Positions 7,647 to 25,051 of a DNA stretch of 64,000 nucleotides are shown here, piece after piece (the first letter of the stretch is position 1; each line of letters opens with the position of its first letter). Under the pieces are notes generated by a model. The model was not told the DNA's origin, made no database searches, and saw nothing but the letters and a program-made list of their open reading frames with translations. The DNA is taken from contig NZ_KK073874.1 in NCBI RefSeq assembly GCF_000585375.1, forward strand, positions 558,001-622,000, read 5' to 3'. The position numbers and the translations under genes were made by a program. This DNA comes from Cryptosporangium arvum DSM 44712. Lineage in GTDB: Bacteria; Actinomycetota; Actinomycetes; Mycobacteriales; Cryptosporangiaceae.

Positions 7647-10169
7647 TTAGCGGGGGCGGGTGGCTTCGCCTTGGCGGGCCAGGGTGACGGCCGCCGCGGC
7701 GTCTACGGTGCCGGCGCCGAGCACGTTGCGGGCGTTGCCGCCGCAGGACGGGGCGCTGCCCAGGGTCGCGTTCTGGGTGCTGGCGCGGAGCAGGGCGGCG
7801 GTGCGCACGATGTCGCCGCGCAGTGACGGCGCGGCCTGCCAGATCAGCGCCACGACCCCGGCGACCTGGGGGGTGGCCATCGACGTGCCGGACAGCCGCG
7901 AGTAACCGCCGCCCGGCCAGGCCGACAGGACGTCCACGCCGGGTGCCGTCAGATCGGGCTTGGACTCCGCGTCACCGGGCACCGGACCGCGGCTGGAGAA
8001 GCCCGCGACCACCTTCTTGTCGTCCACGGCCCCGACCGTGAACACCGAGTCGTACCGGCCGATCGGGTCGGTGATCGAGCGGCACCGCGGGCCCTCGTTA
8101 CCGGCCGCGGCCACCACGAAGACGCCCGCGTCGCGCAGGGCCTCGACCGCCGGTTCGAGCGTGCCGGCACCGCACCCTTCGACGTCGGGGCAGCCCCACG
8201 AGTTGCTGAGCACGTCGGCCGCGCGGGCCGGGTCACCGTCGGCGAACGGGTCGCCGCCGGCCCGGAACGGGGCCAGCATGAACTGCAGACAGTCCAGGTA
8301 GAGGCCGGGGTTGCCGAGCGGGCGGGCCAGGTTCGCGCACCCGATCCAGGTGGCGCCGGGCGCCACCCCGACCTTCTTACCGACCGCGCTGCCTGCGGTG
8401 TGGGTGCCGTGGCCGTTCGGGTCGGTGGGGACGGTGGTGCGGTTCCACGGGTCGTGCCAGCTGTCGGCGCCGCCGCGGTAGGTGTCACGCAGGGCCTCGT
8501 GACGGGCATCGACGCCGCTGTCGGAGAAGCCGACGACGATGCCGCGGCCGTCGGTGCCCTCGCGCCAGGCCTGCGGGGCCTTGATCGTCTCGAGGTTGGC
8601 CGGCGTGCCGGTGAGGGTGCGGGTGTCGGCCGAGCCGGCGGTGGCGGCCTCCGGGATCGGACGGAGCTCGGGGTTCGGCTGCACCGCGGCGACGTCGTCC
8701 CGGGCGGCGAGCACGGCCCGCACGAGCGGGGTGTCGTCGACCTCGACCGCGTTGACCAGGTAATACGACGTCGGATCGGCGCCGACCTTACGGAGCGCCG
8801 AGAGCAGCGACGCCTGGGTGCGGCGGGCGTGCTCCACCAGGAGGCGGTAGACGGCGGTGCGGCGGGCGGTGAGGTCGGTGGTGGAGTCACCCACCGCGGT
8901 GGTTTCGGCCTGGTTCTTCAGGACGACGAACAGCCGGTCGCCGTGGAAGCCGTCCTGACCCGGGCCCAGCCACAGCAGCCCGGACGAGACCACCAACACC
9001 CCGATCAACGCCCCCGACAACACTCGCCCGCGACCACCGACCGCCCTCCCCACAGGCCGGTCAGCTTCGGCCCCCGCCTCGGACATGCCCGCCTCGGACA
9101 TGCCCGCCTCGGACACGCCCGCAGTGAGCTCGGCCTGCGCCTCGCGTCCGGCGGCCTCGGGCGGTGCGATGGGCGGCGTGACCGGGGCGGCGCGTTTGGT
9201 GCGGCGGGCCGCGATGACCAGACCGAGCGCGACCACCGCACCCGCCACCAGCGCCAGCCAGGCCGAGATGCCGGTGCCGATCGCCGCCCACTGCGGCACG
9301 TCACCCGGCACCAGCAGGAGCGTGACCTCCTCGGCGTCGACGAACGCCAGCGGACCGAACGCCGCCAGCGCGACGAGCAGCGCACCCGACCACCGGCGGA
9401 CCGGATCGACGCACGCCAGCGCCACACAACCGGCCGGAAGGACGCCGAGCAGCAGGAGTTGGGTGCCGGGGGACCCGAACGCACCGGCCAGCAGCGCGAG
9501 CGGCACGGCGAGCACCAGCGCGTCGAGCACCAGCCCGGCGACCGGACCACCCACCGGCACTCGGAGCGGCCCGGTGCGCCGCAGGCGGGACATCAGCACG
9601 CCGAGCCCGGACGCGGCCAGCGCGGCGGCCACCACGTCGAGCGGGCCGCCGAGCGCCCCGACCCACCACCACGGCAGCAGGACGAGCAACCCGCACGCGA
9701 CCGCGACCGCGGTACCCACCCGGGGGCTTCGTGTCCCCGGTGCCTCCGCGTCGGACACCCAGCGCCGGAGCGCGAACGCGAGGACGAGCGCGACGACGCC
9801 CTCCAGCGCGTCGGCCACCGCGTCGCCGGCCGACCACGGCACCGCCCGCACGAGCCCGAGCAGCGCCGCGCAGACCGCGGCGAGCGTCCAGAGCCGGGCG
9901 ATCGCGCGGATCACCGGCCGCTTCACCAGGAGCCAGGCCAGCGCCGCGGGTGCGCCGGCGCCCAGCGCGGTGAGCACGGTCAGCCCCGGCCAGAACACGC
10001 CGGGCACCGGGTAACCACTGATGACCAAGATCTCGTGCGCGACCCAGACGAACGGCTGAACCACGGCCGTGACCCCGACGGCAGTCAACCCGGCCAGCGT
10101 GACCAGCGTGGGGGCCACCCAGCGGGGGACACCACCGGCCGGACGGGGAGCGGGCACGTTGGGCTGCAT
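7647..10169 (-). CDS. Membrane-embedded S8 (subtilisin-like) serine protease
   Basis: 840 residues, much longer than a secreted subtilase. Residues ~15-335 form about eight to ten hydrophobic helices. A ~50-residue linker with the near-repeat SEAGMSEAGMSEAGAEAD follows (~350-370), then another membrane helix (~395-412). After it come a propeptide/I9-like region (~420-520, beginning GDRLFVVLKNQ) and the peptidase domain. The catalytic triad is Asp550 (FSDSGVD), His587 (NGHGTHTAG) and Ser763 (SGTSMATP); Asn691 in AAAGNEGP is the oxyanion residue. All are intact, so it should be active outside the membrane. Five or more Cys in the catalytic domain suggest disulfides. It stands alone and diverges from glpD. 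The substrate is unknown. ATG 10169 follows no clear ribosome site. Confidence 0.85.
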   Translation of the reverse strand: MQPNVPAPRPAGGVPRWVAPTLVTLAGLTAVGVTAVVQPFVWVAHEILVISGYPVPGVFWPGLTVLTALGAGAPAALAWLLVKRPVIRAIARLWTLAAVCAALLGLVRAVPWSAGDAVADALEGVVALVLAFALRRWVSDAEAPGTRSPRVGTAVAVACGLLVLLPWWWVGALGGPLDVVAAALAASGLGVLMSRLRRTGPLRVPVGGPVAGLVLDALVLAVPLALLAGAFGSPGTQLLLLGVLPAGCVALACVDPVRRWSGALLVALAAFGPLAFVDAEEVTLLLVPGDVPQWAAIGTGISAWLALVAGAVVALGLVIAARRTKRAAPVTPPIAPPEAAGREAQAELTAGVSEAGMSEAGMSEAGAEADRPVGRAVGGRGRVLSGALIGVLVVSSGLLWLGPGQDGFHGDRLFVVLKNQAETTAVGDSTTDLTARRTAVYRLLVEHARRTQASLLSALRKVGADPTSYYLVNAVEVDDTPLVRAVLAARDDVAAVQPNPELRPIPEAATAGSADTRTLTGTPANLETIKAPQAWREGTDGRGIVVGFSDSGVDARHEALRDTYRGGADSWHDPWNRTTVPTDPNGHGTHTAGSAVGKKVGVAPGATWIGCANLARPLGNPGLYLDCLQFMLAPFRAGGDPFADGDPARAADVLSNSWGCPDVEGCGAGTLEPAVEALRDAGVFVVAAAGNEGPRCRSITDPIGRYDSVFTVGAVDDKKVVAGFSSRGPVPGDAESKPDLTAPGVDVLSAWPGGGYSRLSGTSMATPQVAGVVALIWQAAPSLRGDIVRTAALLRASTQNATLGSAPSCGGNARNVLGAGTVDAAAAVTLARQGEATRPR

Positions 10170-11996: not shown

Positions 11997-12167
11997 CTAG
12001 GCCGAGTGCACCTCGTCGAAGAGCGAGTGCTCGGGCGTGCCCTCGTTGGCCGGCTCGAGGTCTTCCTCGTTCGAGTGCTTCCGCCCCCACATCGCCGCAC
12101 CCATGATGCCCGCGATAACCGCAACCGTCAGCGCGGTGAAGAGCGTCAAAACCAGAGGTGTGCTCAT
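11997..12167 (-). CDS. Small single-pass membrane protein
   Basis: 56 residues: MSTPLVLTLFTALTVAVIAG begins a membrane helix (~4-27, ending near WGRK), followed by an acidic tail (HSNEEDLEPANEGTPEHSLFDE). Helix plus charged tail suggests an inner-membrane microprotein with a cytoplasmic C-terminus. It is convergent with glpD (8-nt gap). An in-frame ATG ten codons upstream (12197) is possible; neither start has a strong ribosome site. I do not recognise a family. Confidence 0.6.
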   Translation of the reverse strand: MSTPLVLTLFTALTVAVIAGIMGAAMWGRKHSNEEDLEPANEGTPEHSLFDEVHSA

Positions 12168-12389
12168 AGTGCTCAGCGTCGGGTGTGAAAGCGCCATCGT
12201 CAAGCGCCCTGGTCCGTTCGGGTGATGTCTTCGGCCGGTCGTGGGAGCAGGCAACTCTCCGTCGCCGAAGCAATTAATCTGCGTCGGAATTCCGGTCAGT
12301 GAGCAGTTTTCGTCGTCAGTTTGAGGTCGGATCCACCGGGAATTCGGCTCGGGACGGCACGGGGTGACAAAGACGACGAAAGGCTGACG

Positions 12390-12926
12390 ATGGCTACGCA
12401 ATTGAACGGCGCCCGGATCGCGTTCCTCGCAACGGACGGCGTCGAGCAGGCGGAACTCGACCAGCCGTGGGCCGCGATCAGCGACTCCGGGGGACAACCG
12501 GAACTGATCTCGCTGTCCGGAGGGAAGATTCAGGCGTTCAATCATCTGGACCACGGCGACACTCGTTCGGTTGATCGTGATCTGGATGCTGCGAATCCGG
12601 ACGACTATGCCGCTTTGGTGCTTCCGGGTGGAGTAGCTAACGGCGATTTTGTTCGCGCGGACGAGCGGGCTGTGAGTTTTGTTAAGAGTTTCTTCACGTC
12701 GGGCAAGCCGGTCGGGGTCATCTGCCACGGCGGCTGGGTGCTGATCGAGGCCGGGGTGGTGGAAGGTCGGACGCTCACGTCCTGGCCCAGCCTGCAGACC
12801 GACTTCCGGAACGCCGGGGCGGAGTGGGTGGATCGGGAGGTCGTGGTCGACGGGAAGCTCGTGACCAGCCGGAAGCCGGACGATCTGCCGGCGTTCTCGG
12901 CGGCGGTGCTGGAGCAGCTCGCCTGA
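12390..12926 (+). CDS. DJ-1/PfpI family protein
   Basis: 178 residues with a flavodoxin-like DJ-1/PfpI fold. The nucleophile elbow is VICHGGW with Cys112 followed by His, and the acidic residue typical of the family lies near ADGVEQAELD (~16-25). Members include deglycases/glyoxalase III-like enzymes, chaperones and intracellular proteases; the form with C-H-G is close to YhbO/PfpI-type general-stress proteins. The ATG at 12390 is preferred over an in-frame codon at 12321 because GAAAGG at 12379-12384 lies a few nt ahead and conserved sequence begins there. It ends 4 nt from the convergent DUF3068 gene. A stress role is inferred from the family. Confidence 0.88.
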   Translation: MATQLNGARIAFLATDGVEQAELDQPWAAISDSGGQPELISLSGGKIQAFNHLDHGDTRSVDRDLDAANPDDYAALVLPGGVANGDFVRADERAVSFVKSFFTSGKPVGVICHGGWVLIEAGVVEGRTLTSWPSLQTDFRNAGAEWVDREVVVDGKLVTSRKPDDLPAFSAAVLEQLA

Positions 12927-14382: not shown

Positions 14383-15996
14383 CTAGGCGGTCGAGGGAAG
14401 GTGAAGCTTCGGGCGCGGGTCGTTGCCGAACGTCGGGGTCAAGCCGTTCACTTCCTCGACCGTCAGCTTGGGAAGATCGGGAGAATTAGGCAGGGAATGA
14501 ATTATCTGGGAAAGAATACGAACAAAATCCCGGTACGAGTGATCTCCTCCGAAGTCCGCTAGCGAGAGACCTCCGTACACCGAATCGAGAGCCTCCGTGG
14601 TGTGCATGACGTCTCTTACGCCGTCCGGCCAGTCGGCCTTCCCCATGTCGCCCCAGCGCAACGGCAGAATTCCGACCGTGTCCTCACCGGCCCGTCGAGC
14701 CCGCTCGTTGAAGACGGCCCACTCCAGGCCGCACCACGACCGCTCGAAGTAGTCGCGGGAGCAGAGCGCGATCAGGACGCGCGACGTCGTCGCCGCGTGG
14801 TAGAGCTTGCTCGGCCAGTGCGAGCCCAACTGCATGTTCTGGTCGATGTAGCCGTCGTACTCCTTGGGCGCTCGCCTGGCATGGGTCTGAGTTTGCTGTT
14901 TGAGCGCCCGCCAGAACTCCAGAACCCGATGCTGGTCGACGTCGCGTCGGGAGTAGCTCAGGAAGAAGCGGTACGACTGGCCGGGCGGGGTGCGAGCGGC
15001 CTCGTCGGCCAACTGCCGGAGAGCCGCCTCGATGCTCATCGTGGCCGGATCGTCGGGGGCGAACTCGTGGGTGGCCGCCGCGAGCCCGCGCAGTCCGTCG
15101 GAGCCGTGCGAATCGCTGATGCGCTCCACCAGTTCCTGCCAGTACCTCGCGACCGACAGAGCCGGGTCGATGTCGAAGTACAGACCGTGATTGGTTCGCA
15201 TGAGCGACGAGAAAGCCTGACGTCGCTCCGGCGTGTTGATCGCCGCCGCTCCCGACAGGAGATACACGACGTTCTCGAGCAGCCGTTGCGAGGGCTTCCT
15301 GGCCGGGGCGACGACCGCCGGCGTTGTGACCGGCTGCTCGCTCAGCGCCGAGAGAGCCGTGAGGCGGAGCAGGCGCAGGGCGACCTCCGCGTCCACCGCG
15401 CCGGCCAGAATCATCGCGTTGAGCTGAGCGATCCGGAACGGCTCGTCGCCCAGCAGGCTTCCCAGCGCGTCGGCGTCCTCCGGGTCCAGCAGGGGGTCGC
15501 TCTGCCCGAGCAGCACAGCCGACTCCGACCGCGCCAGCCGGCCGAGGCGAACGGCCGGGCCGCTCCAGGCCGCAGGCAACTCGGTGGCGACGCGCAGCGC
15601 GAGCGGGGCGTCGCCATTCAGAAGAGCGAGGAGCCCGTCGACCCTGGTGTCACCCTCGGGACAGTCGAACACGAAGAGTGAGCGCGGGCCGCCGATGCGC
15701 GTCGCCGCTTCCTCGCACTTCAGCTCACACTCCTTGAACGTGTTCCGCACGTCCGTGGAATCGAACCACCAGATGACGTCGTAATTCTGGGAGTAGCGGT
15801 AGCAGTATTCGATCGCCGCCTCCGTCTTCCCAGGTTTCGCCATCCCGGGGGTTCCGTGGAGGACGGCCTTTCGATGAACCTGTAAGCCCTCGTGCAGCTG
15901 GGCGAGTTCGTCGTCGCGACCGACGAAGGACAATCGCCGCGGTGGAACGTTGAAGACTCTCGGAGATCCCGAAGGTAGATCGAAGAGCGTGGTCAA
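14383..15996 (-). CDS. NB-ARC/STAND-like NTPase with C-terminal TIR domain
   Basis: 537 residues from a TTG start that overlaps the upstream gene's stop (TTGA, 15996-15993), so it is translationally coupled. A VFNVPPRRLSFVGRDDELAQ segment (~17-37) opens an NB-ARC-type region with Walker A GMAKPGKT (~50) and the YDVIWWFDS strand shared with FxsT. The NTPase core is short, then a helical stretch (~130-330). The C-terminal TIR domain (~339-470) starts YRFFLSYSRRD and keeps the WCGLEW motif with the Glu that is catalytic in TIR NADases. The domain order NB-ARC then TIR is the reverse of many plant-like proteins. The start is uncertain. A role in immunity or regulated cell damage is inference from the domains. 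Confidence 0.75.
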   Translation of the reverse strand: MTTLFDLPSGSPRVFNVPPRRLSFVGRDDELAQLHEGLQVHRKAVLHGTPGMAKPGKTEAAIEYCYRYSQNYDVIWWFDSTDVRNTFKECELKCEEAATRIGGPRSLFVFDCPEGDTRVDGLLALLNGDAPLALRVATELPAAWSGPAVRLGRLARSESAVLLGQSDPLLDPEDADALGSLLGDEPFRIAQLNAMILAGAVDAEVALRLLRLTALSALSEQPVTTPAVVAPARKPSQRLLENVVYLLSGAAAINTPERRQAFSSLMRTNHGLYFDIDPALSVARYWQELVERISDSHGSDGLRGLAAATHEFAPDDPATMSIEAALRQLADEAARTPPGQSYRFFLSYSRRDVDQHRVLEFWRALKQQTQTHARRAPKEYDGYIDQNMQLGSHWPSKLYHAATTSRVLIALCSRDYFERSWCGLEWAVFNERARRAGEDTVGILPLRWGDMGKADWPDGVRDVMHTTEALDSVYGGLSLADFGGDHSYRDFVRILSQIIHSLPNSPDLPKLTVEEVNGLTPTFGNDPRPKLHLPSTA

Positions 15997-17000
15997 CGAT
16001 TGCCGACCGGTGCCGACTCGACCGCGCGGACCAGCTCGTCGACCACTTCCGCCGTGGGTTGTTCCAGAGTGATCATCGAAGTGGTCCGCAGCTCGGCGGG
16101 GAGCGGGGTCGAGTCGAGCCGAACCCGGACGATCTTTTCGGGGTGGGCGGAGTCGACGAGAGCTGATTCCCAGTCCTGCGGCTGGCGAGAACGGTTGATC
16201 AAGTAATGGCGGGAAAGCAACACGACGACACGATCGGTTCGGCTCGCCGCGACGTCGAGTGAATCCTTCAGGCTGGTCTCGTGGTGAGCGTTCCACCGGA
16301 ACAGATCCACTTGATGGCCTTTTTCCCGGAAAACTCCGCGGAGCCAGTCGGCCCAGGGCTGATCGGCTCCGACATAGCTGATGGCGATCGATCTGACCGC
16401 GTTGTCGCGCACCACCGGAACCTCTGACTCGCGCGGCTCGCTGCGCGGCTCGGGGCCCGTGGAGGACGGATCAGCCGCGAGATCGATGTGCTTCGCTTCC
16501 AGGATCTGGCGCACCACGTCGGTCACGATCGCGTAATACTCTTTGGATTGACCCCGGTGCCGCATGAAATCCGCCAGGCCGGAGCCGTCGTCCGGGCCGT
16601 GGACCGGCGGCCACCACGCGCGGTTCAAGTACCGAGGCTCCACGCCCTCGGGACGCTGCGGGAGCGACCCTCGCCAGCGCACGGTGATCAGACACTTTTC
16701 CGCCGGCGCGCGTTCAGCCGTATGTTTTCGCACACGCCCGGCGAAGCGCACCCATTCTTCTCGGCAGTCCGGATCGGCGAAGTAGTCGCCCGAGCAGAGT
16801 GCGACCATGCTCGGAACCCAGTCCGCCCGGTCGGTGGTGGACCGTTCCCAGCCCGGCGCGAGCCCGTAGCGGTCAAGTATGCCGCCGACACCGAGACCCG
16901 CCTGCACCCAGAGCTGCCGCTCGAGGTCGTCGTGGAATCTCTTGACGGCCCCGCGCTCGTCCTCAGAGGACGAATGGCTGGTGAAGAAGTAATAGTCCAT
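15993..17000 (-). CDS. Tandem-TIR domain protein
   Basis: 335 residues. The first TIR-like domain (~1-165) begins MDYYFFTSHSSSEDERG and has SGDYFADPDCREEW (~70-80), retaining the Glu-Trp of the catalytic loop. An acidic/Pro linker (PSSTGPEPRSEPRESEV, ~178-194) joins it to a second TIR_2-like domain (~203-325) starting SIAISYVGADQPWADWL, which has DW instead of EW. The second domain resembles the middle domain of FxsT. The ATG at 17000 follows a ~147-nt leader from a good promoter (17154-17182). It is coupled to the downstream NB-ARC-TIR gene. TIR-TIR pairs can act as NAD-cleaving effectors or scaffolds; which applies is not visible. Confidence 0.78.
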   Translation of the reverse strand: MDYYFFTSHSSSEDERGAVKRFHDDLERQLWVQAGLGVGGILDRYGLAPGWERSTTDRADWVPSMVALCSGDYFADPDCREEWVRFAGRVRKHTAERAPAEKCLITVRWRGSLPQRPEGVEPRYLNRAWWPPVHGPDDGSGLADFMRHRGQSKEYYAIVTDVVRQILEAKHIDLAADPSSTGPEPRSEPRESEVPVVRDNAVRSIAISYVGADQPWADWLRGVFREKGHQVDLFRWNAHHETSLKDSLDVAASRTDRVVVLLSRHYLINRSRQPQDWESALVDSAHPEKIVRVRLDSTPLPAELRTTSMITLEQPTAEVVDELVRAVESAPVGNR

Positions 17001-17153
17001 CGCGCGCCGTCATCGCCGATCGAGCGGGTTCGCGCAGGCTCGACATATGCCGGACGAGGCCATATCCGTCGACCCCCTCATCGGCTGGCGACAACTTCTC
17101 GGGCGCTTCGCTCTCCGTATTCGAGGCGATGCGCACAGTGAGTTGCTCCGAGC

Positions 17154-17182
17154 AGTATAAATATCCCAAAGTGCCCGGTCAA
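17154..17182 (-). promoter_or_regulatory. Sigma-70-type promoter for the TIR module
   Basis: On the minus strand: TTGACC (17182-17177), a 17-nt spacer, TATACT (17159-17154). Both hexamers are close to consensus with ideal spacing, rare in this GC-rich DNA. Transcription would start near 17147 and give the tandem-TIR gene a ~147-nt leader. It separates the TIR module from the fxs genes upstream. Confidence 0.65.
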
Positions 17183-17192
17183 GTGCCCATAT

Positions 17193-18227
17193 TCATTCAT
17201 TCTGTCCTGCCGAGTCTTCACTGGAGCTTTCCGGAAGGCGGAGAGCGATCTGTTCCGAAAGTTCCTGAACACGTGCGTCCGCGTCCGCTACCCGGGATTT
17301 ATCGACGGTAACGCCGATTACGTACGACCCCGGGTAATGGGTCGAAATCTTGTTGTAGAACAGCGCGCCCTCTTCGACGTCGAGCACGAGTCTATTCAAT
17401 GCCCCGGCCGTCACCGGGTACATCGACTGCTCCAGGGAACGCACCATCGCGTCGAGTCTGCTGCCGATTTCGCGATAACGGATGCGACGATCTTTTCGGC
17501 TTATCTGATCGAAGAAGAGCTTGAGTTGCGGCGCGCTGAACACGTCGACCGCACCTTGGAACGCGCCGCCGTCATAATAGGCTGCGTAGTGAAGCCGCTG
17601 TGGGTCGACGGCTTCGCGGCTGAATTCCCGAACCAGCGACTGGGTCGTGCTCTCGTCGATGAAGCCCTCGACGTGCGGACTGTTGCCGAACTCGCTGAGA
17701 ATCCAGTCGCCCTCGCCCTGGGTCAGGTACCCGCCCGGATTCTGCGAGCCCAGCCGGTAGCGTGCCCTGACCTCGTTCGTGAGGTCGGCCATCAGCCTGT
17801 CGGCGGTCTGTAAGCCTGGGCTGTCGAACGCGTAGCCGACGAAGTACTGGCCGGTACGGATCTGATAATGATGGACCGACTGATTGTCGGCCTCCAGGAC
17901 CGTGCGGATGAGACGACCACTTCGAATGGTCTGGAGTTGGCGGTCCAGCCGGTCGGCGAGGAAGTTCATCTGCCGCCCGTGCCAGCGGCACCACTCCCGC
18001 TGGCGCTCGACGTCGCGCTCGGAGGGAAGAGCGCCCGCGACGTCAGCGAGTACGTCGATCGAGAAGTCGAAGAAGCCCCGGGTGAAGTGACCGACGTAAT
18101 GCAGCTTCCGTGCGCTGACGACCTCGCCGGTCAGTTGGATGAGCTCTTCGTTCTCCTCGGGCAGGTGACTCGCTCGGACGATGTTCGGCTCGACGGGTGA
18201 GGGCACGCTGTGTGCGTCTACGGACAT
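17193..18227 (-). CDS. Unrecognised protein encoded in the FxSxx island
   Basis: 344 residues, starting MSVDAHSVPSPVEPNIVRAS at the ATG at 18227 (GGGGAT ribosome-like site), 47 nt after fxsT. It is soluble, with no signal peptide or membrane helix. Two halves each carry a similar LHYVGHFTRGFFDFSIDVL / LHYAAYYDGGAFQGAVDVF phrase (~42-60 and ~215-233), suggesting an internal duplication. Other features are WCRWHGRQMNFL and LDRQLQTIRSGRLIR (~90-108), the latter repeated in looser form as LDAMVRSLEQSMYPV. No family is recognised. The same orientation and spacing as the fxs genes suggest it is co-transcribed with them. A longer in-frame extension to 18557 is rejected because it overlaps fxsT. Confidence 0.7.
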   Translation of the reverse strand: MSVDAHSVPSPVEPNIVRASHLPEENEELIQLTGEVVSARKLHYVGHFTRGFFDFSIDVLADVAGALPSERDVERQREWCRWHGRQMNFLADRLDRQLQTIRSGRLIRTVLEADNQSVHHYQIRTGQYFVGYAFDSPGLQTADRLMADLTNEVRARYRLGSQNPGGYLTQGEGDWILSEFGNSPHVEGFIDESTTQSLVREFSREAVDPQRLHYAAYYDGGAFQGAVDVFSAPQLKLFFDQISRKDRRIRYREIGSRLDAMVRSLEQSMYPVTAGALNRLVLDVEEGALFYNKISTHYPGSYVIGVTVDKSRVADADARVQELSEQIALRLPESSSEDSAGQNE

Positions 18228-18274
18228 GCGGTATCCCCTAGCGAACGTTCCGCGTACCTGGGTCGTCGGGCCAT

Positions 18275-21200
18275 TCAGAACGCCGGCACTTCGAGATCGA
18301 TCTCGCCGCGGTCGGAGGTGGGCCGGTCGATCGCGCCGCCTTCCTCGCGTTCCTGCGAGTCGAGGTGGTTGCGCAAAGCGATCTCGGAGTACGAGTGGCC
18401 GTTCCCGTACAAGCGCGTGAATGCGGAGCGGGCGTGGCTGTCGAGTTCTTTCGCGCGGGTGAAGTCGCCCAGGTCGACAAGGACGTTGGCGTAGTTGATC
18501 GACGCACCGGCCAAGATCGGGTGGCGGTCTCCCAGGCTCGCGTAGAGACCGTTCCACGATGCCTCGGCGTCGATGCCGCTACGAGCGAAGTCGCCGGTTG
18601 CCCGCCGGAACGTCGCGAGGGAACACTGGCAGATGAAAGTGAACGGATGATTGTCCCCGAACACCTCGCGGTACCCCTCAAGCACGTCTGCGCCCATAGC
18701 AACAGCGGCCTCATAGTCACCAAGAACGTGAAGATCTGTTGCGAGGTTCAAGCGGCACGACAGGGTGTCCGGATTGTTCAATCCGTAGCGCGCCGTGTAC
18801 CGACGAACCGTTGCTTGGCTGAGCGACCGAGCGAGTTCGGGGTCGCCGAGACGCCGCCAGCTGACCGCCAGGCTGCGACGGGCACGTAGCGTTTCCGGTG
18901 CGTCGTCGCCGAATCGCTTGCGGCACTCCTCCGCGGTGTCCCGGAGAGTCCGCATGGACTCGGCGACCCGGTCGAGCTCGCGATAGACCGTGCCGATGTT
19001 CCCGTACGAGAACCAGGTGTGGCGGTGCCCGTCTCCCAACACGCGTCGGCGTCGGTCGTAGGTATCGCGATCCTGCTGGAGGGACTCCTCGGCCGAACCG
19101 ATGAGCAACAACGCTTCGGCCAGGTTGTTCGCGGCGCTCAGCGTGTCGGGATGGTCCACGCCGAAGAGCTCGCGGAAGTAGGCGTACGTCGCTTGGTCGT
19201 CTTCCCAGCCCTCTCGGAAACGTCCGAGACCCCGGAGGTCCGCTCCGAAGCTCCGCAGTGTCATCAGCATCTGGGGATGCTGGGGACCGCCGAGCAGTCC
19301 CGATTGCACGGCCAGAATCTTCCGATCCAGCTCGTACGAGTCCCGGTACCGGCCTTCGGAGCGGTAAGCGTTCGCGACCTGGACGCCCATTCGCAGACGC
19401 AGCTTGGCGAGCTCCTGCTGGTTACCGTCGACACGCTCGTCGTCGGAGAGCGAGATCCATCGCTCGAAGCGGTTCTCGTGCCCGGCCGGTGCCGGCGGCG
19501 ACCAGGTGTCGAGAAGACGCTCGCCGAGCCCGCACGCCTCTTCCCAGCGGCCCGTACGCCACAGATAGCGGACCTGGTTGACCAACCAGCGGCGGATCTC
19601 CCATCGATCGCTCCGGAGTGCTCCCGACGGCGTGATGTGATCCTGCAGCTCGTCGTAGGTCGCGTCGTGGTGGACCTCTTCGGCTTCGGTGTCAGGGGGC
19701 GCGAAGCGTGCGAGCGCGTCCAGAATCGCGGCGCGTCGGTTTTCGCGTTCCTCGGCCGTTAGCCGGGATCGGGCGGCGGCCTGCATCAACGGGTGGATGA
19801 AGATCGTGCGGCGGGTGAAGTCCTGCCGGGCCAGCCCGTGCCCACGCAGAACGCGGAGTATCTTGCCGGTCCCGAAGTCACGCAGGCCCGGGTCGGCCGC
19901 CTCGAGCTCGGCGAGCACCTGGCCCCGTTCGAGTAGCGCGAGGGCGATCGCGTTCGGCGAGAGGAAGCTGCAGTACTCCAAGAACAGCGCTGCCGCGGGG
20001 TACTCGCTCGCCAGGTTCTCGATCGACAGCCGCCAGCTGACCGCGGCCGGCAGGAACTCGTCCGGCTGATCGGCGTCCGCGCGCATGCGATTACGCCACT
20101 CGGCGAGGAGCCGCAGGTAGTCGTTGACCGCCGACGGGGTGTCTCGGCGCGGGTTGAGCCAACGCGCGGCGTGTTCGATCGCGACCGGGAAATCGCCGAG
20201 CGCGTCCGCGACGCGATCAGCCTCCCGGTCGGTCGTCCACGGAGCGCGGAACTTCAACAACTGGACGCTCTCGGGGCGGGTGAAACGCTCGAGAGCGATC
20301 GTCGAAGCGTTGACGCTCGCCCAGGCGCCGGTGTCCTTCGACGTGACGATGCTGTGGACGGAGACGCGCTTGGGTAGCAGGTCGATTATCGCGTCCGGGG
20401 TGTCCGCGCTGTCGAAGATCAACAGGACGCGTCGCGGCGGGTGTTCGCCCGACTCGGCGGGGGTCGTCCCGTTGCTCGACGCGCTCTCCGGGACCGACTG
20501 CTCGGACTCGTTGGCGGCGGCCACCGCGGCGTCGAGATCACGCAGTGACGTCTCCACGCTGATCCGGCTGATCGCCGGGACCCACCAGATCACGTCGTAG
20601 TCGGCTTGGAACCGCAGCGCGAACTCCAGCGCGGTCTGGCTCTTCCCGGTGCCGGACAGGCCGACCAGCGCTACCGGGCCGTCGGGAGTCGTACCGGGCG
20701 CCAGTTTGTTACGCAGTTCCTCCAGCACGTCGTCGCGCCCGACGAAGCGATCCAGGTTGGGGGGCAGCTCGATCACGCTCGGGCGGGTGCGCGGATACCG
20801 GGCCGCACTGTCGTGCGGCAACCGATCGGCCGGCGAATGCCGATCGAGGTGCGCCAGCAGCGCTTTCCGCGCGTCGTCGGGCCCGAAGCCGATCAGGTTC
20901 AGCCCGGGGATCTCCGACCACGGCGGAAGAGTGGAGCCCTCGTCGATGCGGATCGCCAGGATCTTGCTCTCGGCGTGCTTCTCGGAGGCCCGGATGCTCA
21001 AGGCCCGGGCGTCCAGCGACGACTCCCAATGCGACGAGATCAGCGCGACGACCCGGTCGACGTCCGGGATGGGATCGCCCGGCTTCTGGCCGGCTCGGCG
21101 CTCGACGACGCGGATGCCGTTGAGGTAGAGCACGGTACGGATCCAGTCCGCCCACGCGCGATCGCGCGGCGCATAAGCGACGAAGGCCGTCTGCGGCGCG

Positions 21201-22192
21201 CCGATCGGCACCCTGGCGTATCGGCCCTGCAGGGCCTGCCGGGTCGACTCCTTCATCGGGTGCGCCTCGGTGACCTCGCCTTCGGTGATTATCGCCGCCA
21301 AACGCTGATACGGGACGAGCAGACCCTCGAGCTCACTGGCCGGCTCCTCGATCGGAGCGAGCAGTTCCTCGAAGGCATAGTTGGACTTGTAGGGGATCTG
21401 GGTCTCGGCCCAGTACCGCTCGGGGTCGTCGAGGTCGAGTCGATCGACGACCGATTGAAAGGCAGCGCGGGCAAAGGCCCGGCTCTGCTTCAGCCGAGCC
21501 TGTTCGACCGGGTCGACCCGCATTGCCACGGGTAGGACCTTGATTCGACGTCCGACCTCCCGTTCGGCCGACTCGACGATGTGCTGAGCCGCCCACGCCC
21601 CACCCTGGATCGCCTGGTCGTTCATCGCGTAGCCGACCACGACGATGTCGGGCAGCAGTAGCGTGCAGATGTCGGCGTTGTCGGAGAAACCCGTCCGGCT
21701 GTCGATGAGTACGTAGTCGTACTCGTCGGACTTGAAATTGCGCCGCAGTTCCTCGAAGAAACTCAGTCCTTCGGCGGAGTTGTAGAAAGCGTCCCAGTTG
21801 AAGGTGCCGACGGCCTGCGCGTACGCGCTGTTCTGCTTGCCGGCAGGCAGGAAGCGGAACAGATTCGGCGGATCGAACGGCGTGTCCCAGAGGGTCACCG
21901 AGTCTTCGGAGATGTCGGCGTATTTCGAGCGAAGCGGCTCGATGTCCGGCGCATTGCTGTCGATGGCTTCCAATGCGTAATTCCGGAAGATGTCGATGAC
22001 TCCGTCGGAGTTACGCAGCTCCTTGTCGAGGAGGAACGGTTCCAGGTATTTGTGCAGACCGGGAGATTCCAGATCCCAGTCGACCGCCAGAACCCGCTTT
22101 CCTCGGCTGGCCAGGATCCACGCGATGTTGGCCATGCACATTGTGCGGCCGACGCCGCCTTTGTATGAATAAAAGGTAACGACAGTACCCAT
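18275..22192 (-). CDS. fxsT: FxsT-like protein: ParA-type ATPase, TIR-like, NB-ARC and TPR domains
   Basis: 1305 residues. Domain order: MinD/ParA-type P-loop domain (1-~300) with deviant Walker A KGGVGRT (11-17) and LAVDWDLESPGLHKYLEP; a TIR-like domain (~328-450, TAFVAYAPRDRAWADWI) without the catalytic Glu; an NB-ARC NTPase (~475-800) beginning FVGRDDVLEELR, with Walker A GLSGTGKS (~510); and TPR repeats (~935-1290, for example DHPDTLSAANNLAEALLLIG and NNPDTLSCRLNLATDLHVLG). This matches the TPR protein of FxSxx-COOH systems. The start ATG (22192) follows the fxsC stop with a 3-nt gap. It is probably a cytosolic STAND-type sensor; what it senses is unknown. Confidence 0.85.
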   Translation of the reverse strand: MGTVVTFYSYKGGVGRTMCMANIAWILASRGKRVLAVDWDLESPGLHKYLEPFLLDKELRNSDGVIDIFRNYALEAIDSNAPDIEPLRSKYADISEDSVTLWDTPFDPPNLFRFLPAGKQNSAYAQAVGTFNWDAFYNSAEGLSFFEELRRNFKSDEYDYVLIDSRTGFSDNADICTLLLPDIVVVGYAMNDQAIQGGAWAAQHIVESAEREVGRRIKVLPVAMRVDPVEQARLKQSRAFARAAFQSVVDRLDLDDPERYWAETQIPYKSNYAFEELLAPIEEPASELEGLLVPYQRLAAIITEGEVTEAHPMKESTRQALQGRYARVPIGAPQTAFVAYAPRDRAWADWIRTVLYLNGIRVVERRAGQKPGDPIPDVDRVVALISSHWESSLDARALSIRASEKHAESKILAIRIDEGSTLPPWSEIPGLNLIGFGPDDARKALLAHLDRHSPADRLPHDSAARYPRTRPSVIELPPNLDRFVGRDDVLEELRNKLAPGTTPDGPVALVGLSGTGKSQTALEFALRFQADYDVIWWVPAISRISVETSLRDLDAAVAAANESEQSVPESASSNGTTPAESGEHPPRRVLLIFDSADTPDAIIDLLPKRVSVHSIVTSKDTGAWASVNASTIALERFTRPESVQLLKFRAPWTTDREADRVADALGDFPVAIEHAARWLNPRRDTPSAVNDYLRLLAEWRNRMRADADQPDEFLPAAVSWRLSIENLASEYPAAALFLEYCSFLSPNAIALALLERGQVLAELEAADPGLRDFGTGKILRVLRGHGLARQDFTRRTIFIHPLMQAAARSRLTAEERENRRAAILDALARFAPPDTEAEEVHHDATYDELQDHITPSGALRSDRWEIRRWLVNQVRYLWRTGRWEEACGLGERLLDTWSPPAPAGHENRFERWISLSDDERVDGNQQELAKLRLRMGVQVANAYRSEGRYRDSYELDRKILAVQSGLLGGPQHPQMLMTLRSFGADLRGLGRFREGWEDDQATYAYFRELFGVDHPDTLSAANNLAEALLLIGSAEESLQQDRDTYDRRRRVLGDGHRHTWFSYGNIGTVYRELDRVAESMRTLRDTAEECRKRFGDDAPETLRARRSLAVSWRRLGDPELARSLSQATVRRYTARYGLNNPDTLSCRLNLATDLHVLGDYEAAVAMGADVLEGYREVFGDNHPFTFICQCSLATFRRATGDFARSGIDAEASWNGLYASLGDRHPILAGASINYANVLVDLGDFTRAKELDSHARSAFTRLYGNGHSYSEIALRNHLDSQEREEGGAIDRPTSDRGEIDLEVPAF

Positions 22193-22195
22193 TTG

Positions 22196-23491
22196 CTATC
22201 GGCGCTCCATATCGTCGTCGACGGGGCGCCGGAGCCGCGGGCGCCAGGGATGGTCCGGGGTCGTGATCCAACTGGCGCGCTCGCGGGCCGCGACCGGACC
22301 GCTGTCGACGTCGGCCGGCAACCGACGGCGTCGTAGTAGTGCGTTCTGTGCGCCGACCACGGCCTCCGCGAGTCCCGCGTCCAGCTGTTGCGGAGTCGGC
22401 ACGGCGAAACGATCGACGCGCCCGGCGGCGGCCCGGCGACGGAGCGACAGGTGCTCGGTGATACCGGCCAGCAGTTCGGCTTCGTGGCGCGAGGTCTCGA
22501 CGTCCGTGGGGTTCACGACCAGTAGGCACGCCGCGACCGTCGAGTTCCGGAGGTCCTGCTGCCCGAGCCAGGTCAGCAGCTGCCGGTAGACGTCGATCCG
22601 CGAAACCCAGGGATCGACGACGACGAGCACGATCCGGTTGGTCTCCGCCGCGGCCCGGACCTGTTCGACGATTCCTTCGTCGAACGGGAACGCGACGACG
22701 TCGCCGATGTCGAGGTCGTAGATGCTGCGGTACGCCAACGCCAACGCGGTCGTCTCGACCCCGGGTAGGAACGGCTGCCAGCCGGCGGAGTCGGCTCCGT
22801 AGTACTGCCGGTCACGGCGCTGCGGCGGCTGTTCCTCCGCGGCCCCCGCCGCGACGACCAGGCCGACCCGGGTGGCGCCGGAGGCCCGGCCCGGCTTTTT
22901 CGGAGCCGAGGGCAGCAACTCCGGTGACGCGGCGGCGACCCACCGCGGAGTGAATTGGGCGGCGCTGTCCGGCGACATCGCCGGCACCAGCCGGTCGGGC
23001 GCGGCGGCCGTGACGATCTGGTCCACCAGCCCTCGGACGAGGCCGGGGTAAGGCTCCTGACCGCCGCTGTGCCGGATGGTGTCGCCGAGCGCAGAACCGA
23101 GATCCATCCGGACGACGGTCTGCTCGACTTCGGCCGGGACGGGGTCTATCGGGGCCCAGCGCAAGCCAAGCAGGGCGCTCCGCTTGTTGCCGGTGATCTG
23201 CTCATTCGTGAGTTGACGCTGCCAGAAGATCGACCATTCGCCGCACGCGTGCGGGCTGCGGAGGAACTCCGGCGTGTAGATGGCGATCAGCACGGGAGTG
23301 GCGAATACTTCCGGTGTGATCGTGGTGTCGGCTTCGGCAGGCACGCGTCGAGGGCCGCTCAGGACACCGACCGGCCCGTTGCGGGCGGCCAGACGGAGCC
23401 CGACCGCGTCCACCAAGTCTGCGAACAAGCGCCGGATGTAGTGGCCGTCGGTGCCCGTCGCCGCATGTGTCACGACGAAATATGGGCCCAC
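22196..23491 (-). CDS. fxsC: TIR-like protein FxsC
   Basis: 431 residues from a GTG at 23491, giving MGPYFVVTHAATGTDGHYIRR; an AGGGGGGAA ribosome site lies about 9 nt ahead. A TIR-like domain (~1-150) includes YTPEFLRSPHACGEW (~70-82), keeping the Glu-Trp. The C-terminal half (~290-420) has YYGADSAGWQPFLPG and IVLVVVDPWVSR, typical of the FxsC C-terminal region. In FxSxx-COOH loci FxsC sits next to the radical SAM enzyme, as here. Its function is unknown; the N-terminal fold suggests nucleotide or NAD binding. A further in-frame upstream stretch to 23656 is not supported. Confidence 0.85.
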   Translation of the reverse strand: MGPYFVVTHAATGTDGHYIRRLFADLVDAVGLRLAARNGPVGVLSGPRRVPAEADTTITPEVFATPVLIAIYTPEFLRSPHACGEWSIFWQRQLTNEQITGNKRSALLGLRWAPIDPVPAEVEQTVVRMDLGSALGDTIRHSGGQEPYPGLVRGLVDQIVTAAAPDRLVPAMSPDSAAQFTPRWVAAASPELLPSAPKKPGRASGATRVGLVVAAGAAEEQPPQRRDRQYYGADSAGWQPFLPGVETTALALAYRSIYDLDIGDVVAFPFDEGIVEQVRAAAETNRIVLVVVDPWVSRIDVYRQLLTWLGQQDLRNSTVAACLLVVNPTDVETSRHEAELLAGITEHLSLRRRAAAGRVDRFAVPTPQQLDAGLAEAVVGAQNALLRRRRLPADVDSGPVAARERASWITTPDHPWRPRLRRPVDDDMERR

Positions 23492-23671
23492 CGGTACCAC
23501 TTCCCCCCTGAGGCTGATTACCGGGAATTCGAAAGCGCCCGACGACGCGTGGCCTGACCATAACGCTGCGCACGCTACTGAGGACATCAGGGAGGCGAGG
23601 CGAATCGCCGATGTAGCCGGACGGCATAGCAACATTGCCGACCGAACGGGGGGCATGCGTACGGCGCCGAG

Positions 23672-24844
23672 TCAGTCACGGGACCCCCGGTGGGAGCCGG
23701 GCGCATCGCGGCCGAGGGGGAGCGAGGCCAGGGCGCGCTCGGCCCGGCCCTGCACGTGCTCGGCAAGTTTTGCGAGGCCATCGCAGTACACGGAGGGATT
23801 GGCGAAGCCGCTTCCCGAGCGATAGCGGTGTGCGGCCATGCCACCGCCGCAGAGGCGATAGACGGGGCACGCCAGGCACGTGTCGCAAGGAGGAACGCCA
23901 CCGTCGGACGAAGCAAAGAATCGGTGTTCAGCCGCCTGTTCGAACGAATTGGAAAAAATGTCGAGTCCGGTGCTGCAAGCGCCCTCGTAGGCGATTTTGA
24001 ATGAATCGGTGCGTTCGATCGTTCCGTCGGTTTCGACCACGATGGCGGGTGGCCGGGCCGGACCGAACAATTCGCTGTAGCCAACACCACCGAGCGCCAG
24101 TTCGAGCAGAGATGCGAACAGGCGGATCTCGACCTTCAGCCGAGGCTCGTCGAACCAGCGGTCGAATATCGGGATCAGGAACTCGGCGTACGCCGTCGAG
24201 CCTTCCTTCGGAGGTGCGTCCCAGGTCGCATGGGGGAGGAGAAAGTCGATCGTGGGAGGTTCGAGTTCGAGGAGCGACTCATAAACTTCGACCGGGTCGT
24301 TGCGCACGTCGATGACGGCCAGGATGCCGCCGTAGAGCGATCGGAACGGGGTGCTCCGCAATAACTCGGCGGCTCGCGTGGAGCCATCGAATGAGCTGGT
24401 TCCGGCCCGGGTCCGGCGGTGGCGACCGTGTGCCTCGGATCCACCGTCCATGCTCAGTCCGACGCTGATCTCGTGTCGAAGTAGTAACGACAGGACCGTC
24501 GAATCGAGAAGTAAGCCATTGGTCTGCACGGTCATCCGGGCGCGGCGACCCAGCGGTGCGAGCGCCTCGGTCAGGCTGGTTGCGAGGAAGTCGAGCCGGT
24601 CCGTGCCGATGAGCAAGGGCTCGCCACCATGGAGTACCACGTGTGGCCGGACATCAGGTCGATCGACCAGGTACTCACGCAGACGCCGGCCGAAGATCTC
24701 CATCGTCTGCCGCGGCATAACCGCTGGACGGTATTGCCAACTTTGATCCGGCCCGTTGTATACGTAGCAGTAATCGCAAGCGAGGTTGCATCGACTGTGG
24801 ACCTTCAGGATGAACTGGCTGAGCGTACCGGCCGCCTCCGCCAT
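23672..24844 (-). CDS. fxsB: FxsB-type radical SAM/SPASM peptide maturase
   Basis: 390 residues. The radical SAM cluster motif is CNLACDYC (Cys19, Cys23, Cys26), followed by HGGEPLL (~70), VQTNGLLLD (~103) and SVGLSMDGG. A SPASM-type Cys-rich region near the C-terminus reads CDTCLACPVYRLCGGG (~318-333) with a further Cys at SVYCDGL, for auxiliary Fe-S clusters. FxsB-family enzymes are known to make three-residue cyclophane cross-links in the FxSxx motif of the partner peptide. This is the short form without a C-terminal hydroxylase-like extension. The ATG (24844) directly follows the fxsA stop (TGAATG), so the two are tightly coupled. Confidence 0.92.
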   Translation of the reverse strand: MAEAAGTLSQFILKVHSRCNLACDYCYVYNGPDQSWQYRPAVMPRQTMEIFGRRLREYLVDRPDVRPHVVLHGGEPLLIGTDRLDFLATSLTEALAPLGRRARMTVQTNGLLLDSTVLSLLLRHEISVGLSMDGGSEAHGRHRRTRAGTSSFDGSTRAAELLRSTPFRSLYGGILAVIDVRNDPVEVYESLLELEPPTIDFLLPHATWDAPPKEGSTAYAEFLIPIFDRWFDEPRLKVEIRLFASLLELALGGVGYSELFGPARPPAIVVETDGTIERTDSFKIAYEGACSTGLDIFSNSFEQAAEHRFFASSDGGVPPCDTCLACPVYRLCGGGMAAHRYRSGSGFANPSVYCDGLAKLAEHVQGRAERALASLPLGRDAPGSHRGSRD

Positions 24845-25051
24845 TCAACTGCGCTCCGGCTGCGCGGCGACGACCGAGTTGAACGCCGAGTAACCCTCGT
24901 CCGGAGACTGTTCCATTGTCCGGAGCAACGCCGCGGTGAATGCAGTCCGTGGAAGTCGTGCCGCCAGGTCACCCAGAAGCGCCTTGCGCTCTGCGGGCGT
25001 CAGCTCCCGGATTGCTGCAGGAGTCAGCTCCGGAAAAGGTGCGTCTCCCAT
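24845..25051 (-). CDS. fxsA: FxSxx-type RiPP precursor FxsA with C-terminal tail
   Basis: 68 residues. A leader-like N-terminus (MGDAPFPELTPAAIRELTPAERKALLGDLAARL) is followed by EQSPDEGYSAFNSVV and a tail AAQPERS. The FxSxx motif is Phe57-Asn58-Ser59-Val60-Val61, seven residues from the end, whereas family members normally end at FxSxx-COOH. The gene ends directly at the fxsB start, which fixes its identity as the substrate. The product would be a cyclophane-bearing peptide. The ATG at 25051 lacks a strong ribosome site. About 175 nt upstream of it are free of genes and should hold the promoter. Confidence 0.8.
   Translation of the reverse strand: MGDAPFPELTPAAIRELTPAERKALLGDLAARLPRTAFTAALLRTMEQSPDEGYSAFNSVVAAQPERS

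Follow-up and report, generated by a model that had tools for sequence, protein, structure and literature searches.

A probable FxsA-type precursor with a short C-terminal follower next to fxsB in Cryptosporangium arvum

FxSxx-COOH peptides are named for a motif at their C-terminal end. In a stretch of 64,000 nucleotides from Cryptosporangium arvum DSM 44712 (contig NZ_KK073874.1, positions 558,001 to 622,000), called the window here, a short open reading frame directly 5' of an fxsB gene encodes such a motif, followed by seven further residues. This raises the question whether the frame encodes a precursor of this kind, and if so, what its tail means for the rule in the name. The reading preferred here is that the frame, fxsA, probably encodes a triceptide precursor of the FxsA type that ends in a short follower. 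The features involved are these:

24845..25051, minus strand: fxsA, 68 aa, with a leader at about residues 1-56, the motif FNSVV at 57-61 and the tail AAQPERS at 62-68; assigned as an open reading frame with a weak FxsA match.
24869..24883, minus strand: codons of the FNSVV motif, from the translation; a cross-link is predicted between Phe57 and Ser59.
24848..24868, minus strand: codons of the tail AAQPERS, containing GGAG, the likely fxsB ribosome-binding site.
23672..24844, minus strand: fxsB, a 390-aa radical SAM/SPASM maturase (TIGR04269, 411.2 bits, cut-off 370).
22196..23656, minus strand: fxsC, a 486-aa TIR-like protein (TIGR04276, 78.6 bits, cut-off 55).
18275..22192, minus strand: fxsT, 1305 aa, with a KGGVGR ATPase, TIR, a further ATPase and TPR (NF040586, 699 bits, cut-off 300).

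The gene order is fxsA-fxsB-fxsC-fxsT, with fxsA at the head, and all four frames are open. The fxsA gene starts with ATG and stops with TGA. Its full product is MGDAPFPELTPAAIRELTPAERKALLGDLAARLPRTAFTAALLRTMEQSPDEGYSAFNSVVAAQPERS, the C-terminal part of which is ...YSAFNSVVAAQPERS. A preliminary description of this DNA had reported an internal FxSxx with an AAQPERS tail, a stop codon abutting the fxsB ATG and an island that holds no protease. The translation of the 68-aa frame bears out the first of these. The second is also correct: TGA is directly followed by the ATG at 24844, and both genes share one frame. Pfam agrees with the third for the products of 14383-25051.

Beyond the matches listed above, FxsT also matches NF047398 (136.2 bits, cut-off 90), and in Pfam its TIR_2 and TPR domains score above their cut-offs, with AAA_16 just below its own. 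FxsC scores 46.3 bits against NF040588, the model of the FxsC N-terminus, which is under the cut-off of 130, and Pfam gave no match for it. The fxs genes are followed by two more open reading frames with TIR domains (14383-17000, minus strand). By eye, the product of 14383-16296 also has a stretch resembling the ATPase part of FxsT. At 17193-18227 (minus strand, in the frame 17193-18557) a 344-aa protein without a Pfam match is encoded, relatives of which (~30%) occur at 3 of the 98 FxsB loci searched (L040, L043 and L119).

Third-position G+C (GC3) is 0.67-0.84 in the seven frames measured within 14383-25051. Of the seven flanking frames measured, six have a GC3 of 0.90-0.95, and the seventh (11997-12728) has 0.72. 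The drop across 14383-25051 looks as it would in an acquired island. In PADLOC, FxsB matches viperin models (best E 2.1e-8) and FxsT matches a candidate-defence model.

The FxsB of the window scores above the TIGR04269 cut-off and has the radical SAM/SPASM cysteines that go with membership of that family: C19, C23, C26, C323, C326, C332 and C354, which are kept in 128 or more of the 136 FxsB rows. At three near-invariant positions of the same alignment it has other residues (H58Y, W222F and D356G), and in a FastTree tree of 136 FxsB it sits on a long branch. Because of this branch and these departures, the activity of the enzyme is not assured. The nearest solved structure is the radical SAM domain of ChlB (PDB 9gm3/9gmc; 221.1 bits, residues 8-369). 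We take IPR026335 to be the FxsB family.

What such an enzyme might do can be gauged from known systems. The available text of PMC11002830 reports that MscB (IPR026335) joins Phe C4 to Ser Cbeta in a three-residue ring. The MscB triceptide pathway is like the window locus in its enzyme family and in having Phe and Ser two residues apart. It is unlike it in that the MscB link is reported whereas the cross-link in the window is predicted; the comparison covers the enzyme and the spacing of Phe and Ser. ChlB is called a 'multiple cyclophane synthase' in the title of a paper in the reference list of PMC12636437. The available part of that source places ChlB among radical SAM proteins fused to an HExxH hydroxylase domain; the 390-aa FxsB of the window, in contrast, has no such domain.

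The available text of Kaur et al. 2020 (PMC7159879) describes standalone FxSxx peptide-processing systems that share with the window a peptide and a radical SAM/SPASM enzyme, as well as an AP-ATPase-type TPR protein with an N-terminal MinD/ParA-like domain. It proposes such peptides as a toxin or signal beside AP-ATPase proteins. Unlike the window locus, these systems have a metallopeptidase-like gene, which would correspond to the HExxH family TIGR04267 that the window locus lacks.

According to the preliminary description, an FxsB that accepts an internal motif would broaden the rule for this enzyme class. To see what is usual, FxsB loci were gathered from a contig scan (20 loci), 61 genomes (the organism's own and relatives), 394 genomes from the same class and 5 from the same family, and 78 further stretches were added. 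After de-duplication, with tblastn E up to 1e-50, this made a set of 136 loci, the window's included. A precursor was assigned by hand in 77 of these, and the remaining 59 are left out of the counts. The motif (FxS or FxN) is at the end or one residue from it in 54 of the 77. Another 16, including the window's, have a longer tail, with two of these assignments (L112 and L161) being uncertain, and 7 have multiple motifs. Tails of precursor candidates beside related FxsB have 3 to 28 residues. Examples are FNSFS with 16 residues after it (L058), FDSNM with 12 (L061), FNSSI with 16 (L077) and FQSGM with 5 (L081). Repeated motifs are found at L036, L039 and L008.

As a guard against a biased hand count, a leader model was made from 22 untailed precursors with their motifs removed, which covers one leader type. 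With E up to 0.05 it delivers a best open reading frame in 52 loci, 40 with FxS/FxN near the end and 12 without. Of these 40, 27 stop with the motif or one residue past it, and another 13 run on for at least three residues after the last motif. All 22 training sequences are among the 27; the 18 on which the model was not trained are split into 5 that end at the motif and 13 that do not.

The NCBIfam model for FxSxx-COOH precursors, TIGR04268 (cut-off 28 bits), itself accepts two of the three tailed precursors tested, L058 (51.2 bits) and L061 (49.9 bits); that of the window is the third. It also accepts two of six untailed FxsA, with the other four below the cut-off, and gave no match for the two-motif L007. 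On the FastTree tree, at least 14 changes between ended and extended precursors are needed, 8 of which are forced by starred branches.

As far as these sequences go, an FxSxx motif that is not C-terminal is ordinary in the FxsB family, and the tail is unusual only by the name of that family. The expected broadening of the rule does not hold: tails and multiple motifs are frequent beside related FxsB, two tailed precursors pass TIGR04268, the related ChlB goes by the title of a multiple cyclophane synthase, and departures from a C-terminal motif are frequent in the family. In literature titles and abstract openings no mention of tailed FxsA was found; the tails are not claimed as unreported.

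The survey also turned up some different architectures. In Yinghuangia soli (L039), a precursor candidate 5' of fxsB has many tandem units like FSSYTEAPSG. At L139, L144, L154, L156 and L159, and also at L153, L158 and L163, other shared motifs (GAYVHNSGP and YYED.P, for example) replace FxSxx in the candidates. In L003 and L006 (same genus), a single fxsB is preceded by a series of at least two short FxsA candidates (~43 aa).

It has to be asked what becomes of such a tail. One answer is that a dedicated protease must remove it in trans, after which the mature peptide ends at FxSxx. The 27 of 40 motif-bearing precursors of the leader-model type that end at the motif or one on are in line with this, as is the lack of a tail in the precursors of the most similar FxsB for which one could be assigned. 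There is even a subtilase gene in the neighbourhood, at 7647-10169, but this is on the far side of a FAD oxidoreductase gene on the opposite strand, the product of which has a C-terminal domain of the glycerophosphate-oxidase type, and the GC3 of the subtilase gene is like that of the flanks. Within the island, Pfam found no protease domain in the products from 14383 to 25051, with nothing in Pfam matching FxsC or the 17193-18557 frame. Furthermore, no sequence common to the tails of relatives, and hence no shared cleavage site, is apparent by eye. Finally, the HExxH partner found at many related loci belongs to a family of which a radical-SAM-fused member is described as a hydroxylase (PMC12636437), which also counts against a dedicated protease. 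All told, this explanation is unlikely. Two members of that family, PflC and PosC, can also cleave a peptide backbone (PMC12636437), and an HExxH-type enzyme may for that reason trim the tail in trans.

The subtilase gene itself (minus strand, outside the island) encodes a protein of 840 aa that is hydrophobic in its N-terminal part and has the subtilase domain at its C-terminal end.

An HExxH gene is missing from the window locus, and in the same genome is found only at another locus. It is present at 70 of 98 longer related loci. Split by precursor, these are 21 of the 27 untailed loci, 8 of the 9 with a tail, 3 of the 4 with multiple motifs, 34 of the 52 to which no precursor is assigned and 4 of the 6 unlabelled ones. 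A link between tail and HExxH gene was considered and rejected, given the similar presence at untailed and tailed loci among these 98.

Another possibility is that the tail stems from a recent stop-loss, in a locus that is drifting or dead. No FxsB more than 50% identical to that of the window was found, the best being 50% among the candidates scored in 397 genomes of the order. The best identities elsewhere are 48% in the contig scan, 49% in 394 genomes of the class, 46% in 5 of the family and 47% in 396 of the phylum (own match aside in the last two), and 45% in plasmids, with none in viral contigs. The contig scan relies on six exact peptide patterns and the large genome searches mostly scored four candidates per genome, so a relative may have been missed. 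The long branch also makes the tree neighbours of the window unsure. Among 14 further loci that include the nearest, 9 have precursors that stop with the motif, 2 (L186 and L193) have tailed or repeated ones and 3 have no assigned precursor; L186, L192 and L193 duplicate loci already in the set.

The long FxsB branch and its three departures at near-invariant sites would suit a stop-loss. So would the precursor candidates of two other fxsB genes in the same genome, which are untailed: FNSSI at L052, and FSASL, with Ala at the Ser position, at L009. Against this, the codon after FNSVV is GCC, which differs from every stop codon at all three bases and thus excludes a one-base stop-loss right after the motif. 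The tail may instead have come about by an indel or by several changes. In addition, the four fxs frames are open and the conserved FxsB cysteines are intact. A recent stop-loss in a decaying locus is therefore very unlikely.

A third fxsB of this genome, that of L052 (G000:C1:754779-755534), has a family match limited to positions 1-252 of 363; the SPASM part appears to be divergent or missing.

This leaves the more basic doubt that the open reading frame is no precursor at all, with FNSVV a chance match and the true substrate elsewhere. The motif in itself is little proof, since an FxSxx no more than seven residues from the stop is present in 6 of the 267 window open reading frames of 40-120 aa (both strands, a size range that includes fxsA). 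Neither does TIGR04268 help, as it gave no match to the window fxsA with E up to 10. Like the precursors of that family, the window's is short, lies directly 5' of fxsB, has F-x-S near its C-terminus and has a leader that may be weakly similar. Unlike them, it has seven residues past the motif and is not recognised by the model.

The weight for a putative FxsA identity is in the position directly 5' of fxsB and in the leader. An HMM was built from 37 other FxsA candidates, leaving out the window's own, with 2 of the 37 seeds (L094 and L097) anchored on the wrong F. It gives fxsA a weak score of 11.6 bits (E 0.013 among 1148 upstream open reading frames). The alignment covers residues 31-60, and F57 and S59 fall on the motif columns. 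Of 5000 full and 5000 leader-only shuffles made, 4873 and 4944 were scored, and this score was reached by 3 and 6 of them, respectively, or some 1 in 1000. A leader-only HMM, trained on the 22 untailed precursors, missed it at E 0.05. No second same-strand frame (up to 300 aa, FxS/N near the end) is present within 1500 bases 5' of fxsB. The weak leader match and the position are the reasons for taking the frame as the precursor, and a mere chance match is hard to believe.

Given a precursor, the DNA between motif and fxsB suggests where the tail comes from. This interval measures 24 nt, made up of seven tail codons and the stop, and it has GGAG at -13 to -10, 9 bases from the fxsB ATG. The best anti-SD duplex has -5.8 kcal/mol, and this GGAG is the likely ribosome-binding site of fxsB. 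A comparison was made with 12 relatives that had been chosen for their short gaps and whose fxsB starts are assumed. Nine untailed relatives have 6-20 nt in the corresponding interval, counting the stop, given the nearest plausible start; of the other three, L035 overlaps, L002 has no near start and L114 is tailed. A strong site, at -9.4 to -10.8 kcal/mol, precedes fxsB in 3 of the 12 (L060, L062 and L072), and the remaining 9 have nothing better than -3.2 kcal/mol. Since a strong site is found in only 3 of 12 relatives, with assumed starts, the coupling described below is a reading of the window locus alone. There, the tail would be fxsB leader spacer that is read as protein.

It is barely conceivable that an FxsB lineage without an HExxH partner needs residues after the motif, making AAQPERS a recognition element that is kept in the product and sensed by FxsC/FxsT, with read-through at TGA-ATG also able to yield an FxsA-FxsB fusion that has substrate and enzyme in one chain.

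The likely reading is that of a tailed precursor. The leader would bring FxsA to FxsB, which would link Phe57, through a ring carbon, to the beta carbon of Ser59, and so make a three-residue cyclophane with the tail in place. FxsB would tolerate the residues after the motif, as the enzymes of many relatives would have to. The tail itself would result from an fxsA frame that continues through the spacer, where fxsB has its likely ribosome-binding site, and ends at the start codon of fxsB, and the TGA-ATG junction would couple translation of the two genes. The tail may then stay on the peptide, or a general peptidase may trim it. The product is probably a signal or effector for the TIR/STAND-like FxsC and FxsT.

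Members of the family often break the rule that the name FxSxx-COOH implies. Among the 136 FxsB loci, residues or further motifs beyond an FxS motif are present in 23 of the 77 precursors assigned by hand and in 13 of the 40 that the leader model picked. These, that of the window among them, would be missed if a C-terminal motif were required in a search. With its compact locus and no hydroxylase gene, the window provides a simple test case for FxSxx peptides beside TIR/STAND-like proteins.
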